The position numbers and the translations under genes are program-made. DNA of 35,167 bases, taken from the NCBI GenBank assembly GCA_024654625.1, contig JANLHB010000017.1:1-35167 (forward strand). The letters are read 5' to 3'. This DNA comes from Patescibacteria group bacterium (GTDB taxonomy: Bacteria > Patescibacteriota > Minisyncoccia > GCA-002772825). Shown here one piece after another: positions 869 to 21,009 of the stretch; the first letter of the stretch is position 1, and each line of letters opens with the position of its first letter. The notes below the pieces were generated by a model. The model had not been told where the DNA came from and made no database searches. It saw nothing but the letters and a program-made list of their open reading frames with translations.

Positions 869-2113
869 ATGTTTGATTTAAAACAATTAAATTCCGCTCT
901 TGAGCAATTAGAAGCTGAACGTGGAATTCCAAAAGAAAAAATTTTAGAGTCTATAGAAGACGCTCTTTCGGCTGCGTATAAGAAAGATTACGGCAAGAAA
1001 GGGCAGATTATTCGCGCTACTTTTGACTTGAATAGCGGGAAGACAGAATTTTCTCAAGTTAAAATAGTGGTTGATGAGTCTATGTTGAAGCCTGAAAACG
1101 AAGTTCACTTGGAGACAGAGTCTCCAATTTCACTTGGAGACTCTGTCTCCAAGTTTTCTAGTAAGACGGAAACGTTAGATGAAGCTACTCCAGAAGGGGG
1201 TGAAGAAACTAAGGTTAATTTTAATCCTGAACATCATATAATGATAGAAGAAGCAAGGAAGATTAAGAAGAATGTTGAGCCGGGCGAGGAACTAATTTTC
1301 TCTCTTGAGAATAAGGATGATTACGGGAGAATCGCCGCGCAAACAGCCAAGCAAGTTATCATCCAGCGCATACGCGAGGCAGAAAGAGAATCAATTCTTA
1401 AAGAATTTGATGATAAGCAAGATGAGATAGTAAGCGGTATTGTACAGCGTATTGAGAATAACAATGTTTTTGTTGATTTTGGACGCACGACCGGTATCAT
1501 CACTCGCGATGAACAGATAAAAGGCGAAAGATACAGGATTGGAGAAAGGATTAAAGCATTGCTCTACTTGGTAGAAAAGGCGCCTAGGGGAATCAATATT
1601 TATCTTTCAAGGTCACATCCTCGTTTTGTTTATAAACTTTTTGAGATAGAGGTTCCGGAAATTGCTTCCGGTTTGGTTGAAGTGAAAAATATTGCCAGAG
1701 AAGCCGGTTCTCGCTCCAAGATTGCCGTTACTGCAAATCAAGAAGGAATTGACCCTGTCGGCTCATGTGTAGGCCAAAGAGGGGTAAGGGTTGAGGCTGT
1801 CATCTCAGAACTAGGCGGTGAGAAGATAGATATAATAGAATGGTCGGCTGAACCTGAAGTCTTCATCGCTAATTCACTTTCCCCCGCTAAAATCATTGAT
1901 GTAGAAATAAAAGAAGGGAAGAAAGAGGCTAAGGTCATAGTTGATGAGGACCAACTTTCGCTTGCCATAGGGAAGAGTGGTCAGAATGTTCGCCTTGCGG
2001 CGAAGTTGACCGGATGGAAGCTTGACATTCATTCAAGGAGCGGAGAGTCTGTGGCTAAAGTGGATGAAGACGGAGAAGTTGAGATCGAGGAAGAATTAAA
2101 AGAAGAAAAATAA
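869..2113 (+). CDS. nusA: Transcription elongation/termination factor NusA
   Basis: NusA binds RNA polymerase and nascent RNA and modulates pausing, termination and antitermination. The 414 residues show the N-terminal polymerase-binding domain (~1-160), an S1 domain (~185-250, EIVSGIVQRIENNNVFVDFG) and two KH domains (~255-390) with GxxG loops GQRG and GKSG. The tail is acidic; there are no C-terminal acidic repeats as in E. coli. An insertion at residues ~76-124 separates two parts of the N-terminal domain, and residues 80-95 are encoded by a palindrome pair at 1108-1153. rimP and infB, the usual neighbours, are not adjacent, so the gene stands alone behind its own promoter and leader hairpin. 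Confidence 0.96.
   Translation: MFDLKQLNSALEQLEAERGIPKEKILESIEDALSAAYKKDYGKKGQIIRATFDLNSGKTEFSQVKIVVDESMLKPENEVHLETESPISLGDSVSKFSSKTETLDEATPEGGEETKVNFNPEHHIMIEEARKIKKNVEPGEELIFSLENKDDYGRIAAQTAKQVIIQRIREAERESILKEFDDKQDEIVSGIVQRIENNNVFVDFGRTTGIITRDEQIKGERYRIGERIKALLYLVEKAPRGINIYLSRSHPRFVYKLFEIEVPEIASGLVEVKNIAREAGSRSKIAVTANQEGIDPVGSCVGQRGVRVEAVISELGGEKIDIIEWSAEPEVFIANSLSPAKIIDVEIKEGKKEAKVIVDEDQLSLAIGKSGQNVRLAAKLTGWKLDIHSRSGESVAKVDEDGEVEIEEELKEEK
1107..1154. repeat. Double palindrome inserted in frame in nusA
   Basis: Two adjacent hairpins share arms: TTGGAGAC/GTCTCCAA with loop AGA (1109-1127), and CTTGGAGAC/GTCTCCAAG with loop TCT (1133-1153). The loops are reverse complements, so the whole 1107-1154 segment also forms one perfect 21-bp inverted repeat with a 6-nt centre. 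It adds residues 80-95 to NusA without shifting frame. The outer CTTGG/CCAAG arms and 3-nt loops match palindromes around the transposase gene at 20127. Confidence 0.85.
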
Positions 2114-9503: not shown

Positions 9504-9566
9504 TCTGCCCGAAGGTAGATAAGCCTGCCTGCCGGTAGGTAGGTCTGCCTGCCGGTAGGTAGGTCT
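9504..9566. repeat. Tandem CTGCCGGTAGG-type palindromic repeats
   Basis: Two exact tandem 20-bp units (9527-9546 and 9547-9566), each centred on CCTGCCGGTAGG, fold as hairpins when G-U pairs are counted. A degenerate third unit (CTGCCCGAAGGTAG) lies at about 9505-9518. Such units are widespread in candidate-phyla genomes and often produce spurious ORFs on the other strand. Confidence 0.75.
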
Positions 9567-20077: not shown

Positions 20078-20100
20078 ACTTGGCGGCCTCGCCGCCAAGT
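20078..20100. repeat. REP-like palindrome, copy 1 (upstream of the transposase)
   Basis: ACTTGGCGGC (20078-20087) and GCCGCCAAGT (20091-20100) form a perfect 10-bp stem with a CTC loop, followed by GAG. It may also terminate map transcription. Confidence 0.85.
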
Positions 20101-20108
20101 GAGTTGAA

Positions 20109-20117
20109 TGATATAAT
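20109..20117 (+). promoter_or_regulatory. Extended -10 (TGATATAAT) of the transposase gene
   Basis: TG at 20109-20110, one base, then TATAAT (20112-20117), ending 9 nt before ATG 20127. The -35 region would fall in the palindrome at 20078-20100. Confidence 0.55.
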
Positions 20118-20126
20118 AATAAAATT

Positions 20127-20855
20127 ATGGGTAAAAGAAAAATTGAATTTGCAAATAGTGAATATTACCATATTTTTAATCGTGGAGTAGATAAACGACA
20201 AATTTTTCTTGATCAAGAAGACCTTAGTCGGTTTTTTCAAAGTATGAATGAGTTTAATGTACGTGAACCGATAGGTAGTATCTATGAAAATTCATTTAGA
20301 AAACTATTTGGCGGCGAGGCCGCCAAGTTAAACGAAGGTGAGAAATTAGTTAATTTTATTTGTTATTGTCTCAATCCTAATCATTACCATTTTATTTTAG
20401 AGCAAGTTTCTGATAAGGGGATAGAGAAATTTATGCAAAGATTAGGTGGTTATACATGGTATTTTAATAAAAAATATGAACGTAGTGGATCTTTGTTTCA
20501 AGGACCATTTAAATCTGTGCACATAGACTCAAACGAGCAGTTATTACACACGAGTGTTTATGTGAATTTAAATGATAAAGTTCACCAACTTGGCGGCGAA
20601 GCCGCCAAGTTGGTGAGGTCAAGTTGGGGCGAGTATATGGGGAATATACAAAATACAATGGTGAATATTGATAATAAAATCATTAATAATACCAATGTAG
20701 CAAAAAATGCAAAAAAATCTTTTTGCAAGAAAGATATTATTTTAGATCAATTTAAGAATAGAGATGAGTATAAAGATTTCGCAAAAGAGGCGTTGTCAAT
20801 AATAAGAGAAAATAAAGAAAGAGAAAAAGAGATGGAAAAATTGTTAATAGAATAA
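20127..20855 (+). CDS. HUH single-strand transposase, RAYT/IS200-like (REP-associated)
   Basis: A 242-residue Y1-type transposase of the REP-associated (RayT) group. The N terminus is typical (YYHIFNRGVDKRQIFLDQED). The HUH motif is HYH at 86-88 in CLNPNHYHFIL. The nucleophile Tyr is one of Y109, Y112 or Y117 in GGYTWYFNKKYERSGSLFQG. The C-terminal half has VYVNLND and SSWGEYMG. Two octapeptides, FGGEAAKL (61-68) and LGGEAAKL (155-162), are encoded by palindromes lying in loops just before the HUH strand and after the VNLND segment. No TnpB or insertion-sequence ends are found. The gene seems intact and may mobilise the surrounding palindromes. Confidence 0.88.
   Translation: MGKRKIEFANSEYYHIFNRGVDKRQIFLDQEDLSRFFQSMNEFNVREPIGSIYENSFRKLFGGEAAKLNEGEKLVNFICYCLNPNHYHFILEQVSDKGIEKFMQRLGGYTWYFNKKYERSGSLFQGPFKSVHIDSNEQLLHTSVYVNLNDKVHQLGGEAAKLVRSSWGEYMGNIQNTMVNIDNKIINNTNVAKNAKKSFCKKDIILDQFKNRDEYKDFAKEALSIIRENKEREKEMEKLLIE
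20308..20326. repeat. REP-like palindrome, copy 2 (in frame in the transposase)
   Basis: TTGGCGGC (20308-20315) and GCCGCCAA (20319-20326) with a GAG loop. It is the reverse-complement orientation of copy 1 and encodes part of FGGEAAKL. Confidence 0.85.
20582..20616. repeat. REP-like palindrome, copy 3 (in frame in the transposase)
   Basis: A 16-bp perfect stem (20582-20597 with 20601-20616) around a GAA loop. The core matches copies 1 and 2, and the arms extend by TCACCAA/TTGGTGA. It encodes part of HQLGGEAAKL. Confidence 0.88.
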
Positions 20856-20873
20856 TGGATAATGTTTTTTAAC

Positions 20874-20898
20874 CACTTGGACACGGCGTGTCCAAGTG
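20874..20898. repeat. REP-like palindrome, copy 4 (CACTTGGACAC arms)
   Basis: CACTTGGACAC and GTGTCCAAGTG enclose a GGC loop, followed by AGG. It lies 19 nt after the transposase stop. Confidence 0.85.
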
Positions 20899-20946
20899 AG
20901 GTGCGGGGGTGTGGATAATTGAATAGCACAATAAGTTGATAATGTG

Positions 20947-20955
20947 TGGTATAAT
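20947..20955 (+). promoter_or_regulatory. Extended -10 (TGGTATAAT) of the giant surface-protein gene
   Basis: TG, one base and TATAAT (20950-20955). Transcription would start near 20962, about 70 nt before ATG 21033. The leader would contain palindrome copy 5. Confidence 0.5.
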
Positions 20956-20982
20956 TTAAATATTATAAATCAAAAAATAAAT

Positions 20983-21009
20983 CCACTTGGACACGGCGTG
21001 TCCAAGTGG
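20983..21009. repeat. REP-like palindrome, copy 5 (in the leader of the giant gene)
   Basis: The 25-bp core is identical to copy 4 and the stem is one pair longer (12 bp). It lies 24-50 nt upstream of ATG 21033, within the predicted 5' untranslated region. Confidence 0.85.

Follow-up and report, generated by a model that had tools for sequence, protein, structure and literature searches.

Orthologous RAYTs can change the class of REP that flanks them, a change termed ‘orthoswitch’ (PMC3686654). Intragenic REPs have been described, as have TIRYT genes (PMC3733652). In the TnpA-REP of E. coli, helix alpha-3 contacts the REP, and the recognition of REPs that are perfect palindromes has also been described (PMC8266576). 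The spread of REP-type palindromes and the change of partner by their enzymes are open questions in the field. In the literature on these systems, of which our coverage is incomplete, we found no report of cognate palindromes in the reading frame of the transposase itself.

The locus described here has palindromes in that place. It lies in a window (the whole stretch of DNA that was analysed, 35,167 nucleotides) corresponding to one contig of a Patescibacteria genome of 831 kb in 47 contigs. For comparison, the relatives of the gene were taken with their flanks from genomes of the same Patescibacteria class, giving 141 distinct proteins; those relatives that bear a name are Parcubacteria and other Patescibacteria.

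The transposase gene and its palindromes

The features of the locus, by position in the window, are the following.

20078..20100, strand “.”: upstream palindrome ACTTGGCGGC-CTC-GCCGCCAAGT, putatively cognate to the window protein, its stem being the one predicted by E54 and W111
20109..20117, strand +: extended -10 box TGATATAAT, separated from the ATG by 9 nt; the -35 region is overlapped by the upstream palindrome
20127..20855, strand +: Y1/HUH transposase gene, 242 aa (open reading frame; Pfam Y1_Tnp, E=2.3e-4; fold 4er8)
20286..20288, strand +: codon of residue 54 (Glu), which predicts stem base 4
20307..20328, strand +: internal palindrome (site 1) at codons 61-68, read as FGGEAAKL; loop preceding the HUH strands
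20382..20390, strand +: HUH motif His86-Tyr87-His88, both His invariant in the alignment of the relatives
20457..20459, strand +: codon of residue 111 (Trp), which predicts stem base 6
20559..20561, strand +: probable catalytic Tyr145; Y145, N147 and N149 are invariant in the alignment
20582..20616, strand +: internal palindrome, site 2, 16-nt arms, codons 152-164 (VHQLGGEAAKLVR), ten residues past Tyr145
20874..20898, strand “.”: downstream palindrome, stem TTGGACAC, not a predicted cognate of the window protein
20983..21009, strand “.”: second downstream palindrome, stem TTGGACAC

An earlier note on this DNA had placed one palindrome upstream of the gene, two inside it and two downstream, and all five are present. 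As it also said, the inside copies are in frame, reading F/L-GGEAAKL at residues 61-68 and 155-162, and they leave the HUH stretch (N85-H86-Y87-H88) and the probable catalytic tyrosine undisturbed. The five had been taken as a single family, which needs correction: the stem TTGGCGGC is common to the upstream and both internal copies, and the downstream pair has another stem and 63% identity to the upstream copy. The absence of stop codons from every frame is true of the stem TTGGCGGC. Further copies with the downstream stem are found in gatA (G000:C21:35543) and at G000:C25:10242. The pattern TTGG-N11-CCAA occurs at 34 places genome-wide, compared with 7 for the reversed control pattern; this excess and the same arrangement in dozens of related genes indicate that the palindromes are not due to chance.

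The Pfam match of the window protein to Y1_Tnp narrowly fails the family cut-off, and the same family is matched at E<=0.001 in 53 of 53 aligned relatives. We found no sequence match in the PDB for this protein; the best PDB fold match of its predicted model (mean pLDDT 86.8, with site 1 in a low-confidence loop region) is 4er8, the TnpA-REP bound to its REP hairpin, with E=8e-6. In a low-probability profile alignment, Tyr145 falls on the segment Tyr-Ile-x-x-Asn of RayT from E. coli, so that the residue-by-residue correspondence of the two proteins is tentative.

The -10 box directly follows the upstream palindrome, which therefore covers the spacer and the -35 region. Relatives have TGnTAnnAT after the upstream palindrome, and a match to TATAAT with at most one mismatch accompanies 31 of 71 upstream versus 6 of 70 downstream palindromes (p=2e-6). 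Judging from this position, a protein bound at the upstream palindrome would block transcription, and it is position alone that suggests autoregulation. In the one congener compared with the window (G001), the gene sits among the same neighbours and has additional DNA to either side; it thus appears to have been inherited in place.

Palindromes and predicted recognition residues among the relatives

A flanking palindrome is present in 119 of the 141 genes; most have one some 26-38 nt ahead of the ATG and another some 14-30 nt past the stop. Internal palindromes that match the flanks have their centre in one common codon phase in 88 of 99 cases. In 73 of 86 genes the internal stem and a flank of the gene agree in at least 19 of 21 bases, against a mean of 3.5 and a maximum of 10 when the pairings are shuffled; of 78 internal stems in the nearest subfamily, 74 exactly equal a flank stem of their own gene. 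Where the flanks differ between closest relatives (27 disjoint pairs), internal copies match their own gene 72 times, the partner gene twice and neither twice. Among 77 genes there are 36 distinct stems. Parsimony on a tree from which the palindrome columns had been left out puts the whole-stem changes at about 50 and those of base 6 at about 25, both being estimates because support for the tree is weak.

The internal sites are present in 49 (site 1) and 47 (site 2) of 91 genes. They are not essential, since about half the genes lack them or have them in eroded form. The orientation that would put a stop codon in frame is found in 1 of 81 internal copies and in 21 of 122 flanking copies of the transposase genes. 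In L070, L081 and L103 the internal stem is unlike the flanks, and these genes were apparently caught in the middle of a specificity change. In L127, L139, L157 and L167 both internal and flanking elements are doubled, with 11-17 residues encoded within the protein. Cognate palindromes are rarer inside genes outside this class: in other classes of the phylum, flanking palindromes occur in 33 of 70 genes and matching internal ones in 7 of 70. No internal cognate copies were found among loci L180-L198, which include all fetched loci above the NF047646 cut-off.

With the columns encoded by the palindromes left out of the alignment, the stem is predicted by two protein residues. At residue 54, all 63 cases of E go with G at base 4, and all 12 of Q, A or I go with A. 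Residue 111 pairs with base 6 as K-A (25/25), M-A (7/7), W-C (10/10), R-T (8/9) and N-G (10/13); L086 (K111) and L026 (R111) are examples of the contrast, and the stems of the relatives include TTGGAAGC and TTGGTGAC beside the two at this locus. Tests on well-supported branches had few pairs, and disjoint nearest pairs were used for this reason. Among 38 such pairs, base 6 changes in 0 of 15 where residue 111 is the same and in 15 of 23 where it differs (p=3e-5, the best among all columns); residue 54 has p=0.0024. Residues 101 and 104 had at first seemed to go with stem bases 7 and 9, a link that failed in the disjoint nearest pairs. For the window protein, with E54 and W111, the predicted stem is CTTGGCG, which fits the upstream and the two internal palindromes; the two downstream palindromes fall outside the predicted code. 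In the predicted model, residue 111 lies in the helix 107-116, and it is likewise a helix, alpha-3, that contacts the REP in the E. coli TnpA-REP (PMC8266576). In our view the residue covariation argues strongly that the palindrome is read by the enzyme.

Replacement of loops and copies in coding DNA

In the transposase, the median length of the loops with and without a palindrome is 22 versus 21 at site 1 and 16 versus 13 at site 2. As these differ by only 1-3 residues, the palindromes replace loop sequence. The two refuting conditions named in the earlier note have a mixed outcome. The relatives have peptides other than GGEAAKL at both positions, and some of these peptides are themselves eroded palindromes, several genes lacking a perfect palindrome having such a version at site 2. 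Other stems at the same sites that match their own flanks, together with the small gain in length, indicate that the sites are old and are rewritten in place. The same holds for host proteins: in TpiA and GatB the palindrome peptide aligns to solved homologues nearly free of gaps, and in GatA it occupies a variable loop of ordinary length. Neither in the transposase nor in the TpiA and GatB alignments is the element inserted as added sequence, as in the Rickettsia type.

The patterns of the stems TTGGCGGC and TTGGAAGC were searched in 384 genomes of the class and found in 12 and 26 of them, respectively; the reversed control form never occurred. Outside the transposase reading frames, 28 of the 48 copies of these two stems lie in open reading frames of at least 100 aa, called mechanically, so that some short ones are possibly spurious. 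The other 20 are intergenic, of which 12 adjoin a transposase gene. This class-wide count bears out the suggestion of the earlier note that the element lands in coding DNA; as for that note's second refuting condition, a distribution without regard to reading frame, the copies in host genes use all three frames (12 LG, 11 LEA, 5 TW) and not a fixed one. The host genes named from sequence include GatA, GatB, UvrC, KsgA, TrmD, TsaD, ArgS, MnmA, MiaA, TpiA, CysS and IleS.

In the window genome, in-frame palindromes occur in the conserved genes gatA, folD and nusA, the last as a doublet:

1107..1154, strand +: related in-frame palindrome doublet in nusA, REPIN-like, stem TTGGAGAC, in a hypervariable linker

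This doublet is absent from the relatives whose linker was aligned. The palindrome in gatA (L059, 2042-2064) gives SLGHAVSKS and the one in folD (L062, 3574-3596) gives LFGGSTAKL. The same GatA loop has palindromes in genomes G000, G028 and G153, and inverted repeats are also found in G015 and G026.

Other repeats were seen alongside these. A separate palindrome family, ATCCAAGGGG.., belongs to a second, distant Y1 transposase of the same genome (L054, G000:C16:47300-51800, about 1207-2751); this transposase encodes one copy in frame, as IIQGVPLDR, and the adjoining open reading frame encodes two, likewise in frame. In pilin-like genes, the palindromic repeat CCTGCCTGCCGGCAGGCAGG (L058, 386-405) gives SLPAGRQG right ahead of an FTI/FTLIE motif, and copies related to it lie at 9525-9562 of the window. 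Long hairpins built around a core that resembles ATCCGCC..GGCGGAT occur in L059, L060, L061 and L063-L066, mostly beside or between genes of this genome, and none of this type was found within the window.

Explanations and comparison with known systems

We consider it likely that the gene and its palindromes form a REP/RAYT-like pair with old cognate sites inside the gene and a probable self-limitation of expression. The protein would be a Y1/HUH nuclease with a recognised hairpin whose stem is read by residues 54 (base 4) and 111 (base 6), as the covariation suggests. Its cognate palindromes would stand at up to four places, namely the promoter, codons 61-68, codons 155-162 and after the stop, and a change of the recognition residues would be followed by the rewriting of all four to the new stem. 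If all four sites follow the new stem, the internal copies would be old cognate sites in two tolerant loops and not recent insertions. The protein most likely binds these sites, and the site over the -35 region would limit its own expression. Like the TnpA-REP enzymes, it would also nick and move hairpins on single-stranded DNA, an activity that would account for the copies in housekeeping genes. The anatomy, the agreement of the stems, the covariation and the in-frame copies in host genes are computational results, from which we infer binding, cleavage, copying and autoregulation. Against this reading count the many genes whose internal sites are absent or eroded, and the two downstream palindromes of the window gene with their stem outside the code.

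The same anatomy could arise from copying with no function, in which the enzyme overwrites older hairpins with its current one, by conversion or hairpin exchange, and neither benefit nor regulation follows. The palindromes of the transposase and of TpiA and GatB replace loop sequence with small changes of length, as such overwriting would produce. Also in its favour are the loss or erosion of the sites in many genes, the transitional genes L070 and L081, which retain an older stem at site 2 and so lag behind, and the doubled inside elements of L139, L157 and L167, which follow doubled outside elements. Against this, the flank-matching copies keep to two positions (aa 56-73 and aa 150-171) across distant genes and are not spread over all loops, and perfect arms are far commoner there (33 and 40 of 89 genes at sites 1 and 2) than at a control position elsewhere in the gene (1). 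We give this account appreciable weight while thinking it probably wrong. Another possibility, the one raised by the earlier note, is that a mobile palindrome recently inserted itself twice as an added octapeptide. Perfect in-frame palindromes in flexible loops fit this idea, as does L025, a relative of the same genus without the palindrome at site 1; the same gene has it at site 2, which already contradicts a recent insertion there, site 1 or 2 is present with other stems in most relatives, and loops free of palindromes are shorter by merely 1-3 residues. Two recent insertions are thus quite improbable.

Hairpins may also act in RNA. Control of transposase mRNAs by hairpins is known in IS200-type elements, and the internal hairpins would fall within the mRNA, where they could serve as attenuators or stabilisers that the transposase does not recognise. 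Such a role would depend on pairing and not on certain stem bases that go with protein residues; the upstream copy precedes the -10 box and hence lies outside the transcript; and in the Rfam search no family reaches its threshold, the matches all being below it. We see very little chance that this is the explanation. Chance, or similarity at the level of the protein, as the source of the palindromes is practically nil in probability: it is refuted by the permutation test of internal against flank stems, the reversed-pattern controls and the differing peptides at the same sites, and nothing was found in its support.

Returning to the REP/RAYT-like pair, we propose, tentatively and with more doubt than conviction, that a transposase with a simple residue-to-base code rewrites all of its cognate sites, its own frame included, by hairpin exchange in place. 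If this were true, housekeeping proteins genome-wide would have their variable loops reshaped by the same activity. The relatives provide dozens of natural enzyme-palindrome pairs, from which a recognition code can nearly be read, and apparent intermediates in L070 and L081, which makes a change of specificity directly testable in vitro. A palindrome family can live mostly within coding DNA when it occupies the variable loops of proteins, and loop peptides that are otherwise unexplained in proteins of Patescibacteria may therefore be footprints of mobile elements.

Among the known systems, IS200/IS605 TnpA shares the HUH/Y1 fold (2vjv and 2xo6 are among the fold matches) and hairpins near both ends. 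Unlike those elements, whose end hairpins are imperfect, this locus has perfect palindromes and internal cognate copies. As to movement of the whole gene, the one congener compared has it in the same chromosomal neighbourhood. Rickettsia palindromic elements and intragenic REPs (PMC3733652) resemble the present case in being translated in frame within housekeeping genes; unlike the Rickettsia elements, the palindromes have a linked transposase whose own gene is a host, and they replace sequence with little gain in length. As in the TIRtrons with their TIRYT genes (PMC3733652), there is a Y1 gene without GTAG REPs that is flanked by inverted repeats unrelated to these, some of which are self-complementary in that system; the differences are the internal copies, none of which are described there, and perfect palindromes that follow the recognition residues.

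With REP/RAYT pairs (REPtrons; TnpA-REP, NCBIfam NF047646), the locus shares a Y1/HUH protein with the HUH motif and a single Tyr in the Y1 fold, at a place that is putative here, flanking cognate palindromes with further genomic copies, elements in both single and doubled (REPIN-like) form, and orthologues with a changed flanking stem, comparable to the ‘orthoswitch’ (PMC3686654). It differs from them in that no GTAG or CGTC tag is conserved beside the palindromes (GTAG lies no more than 10 nt away on the 5’ side of 2 of 239), in that the dispersed copies are mainly intragenic and not extragenic, and in having cognate palindromes within the frame of its own transposase. The E. coli rayT control had no perfect inverted repeat with arms of at least 8 in or near the gene, which carries little weight as its REPs are imperfect. 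The window protein scores 19.5 bits and three relatives 29-36 bits, below the NF047646 cut-off of 80 bits. The earlier note had called this a REP-like transposase with its palindrome, which stands as far as a RAYT-like gene with cognate in-frame copies is concerned; given the missing GTAG and the score below the cut-off, it would work like a REP/RAYT pair without being filed as one.
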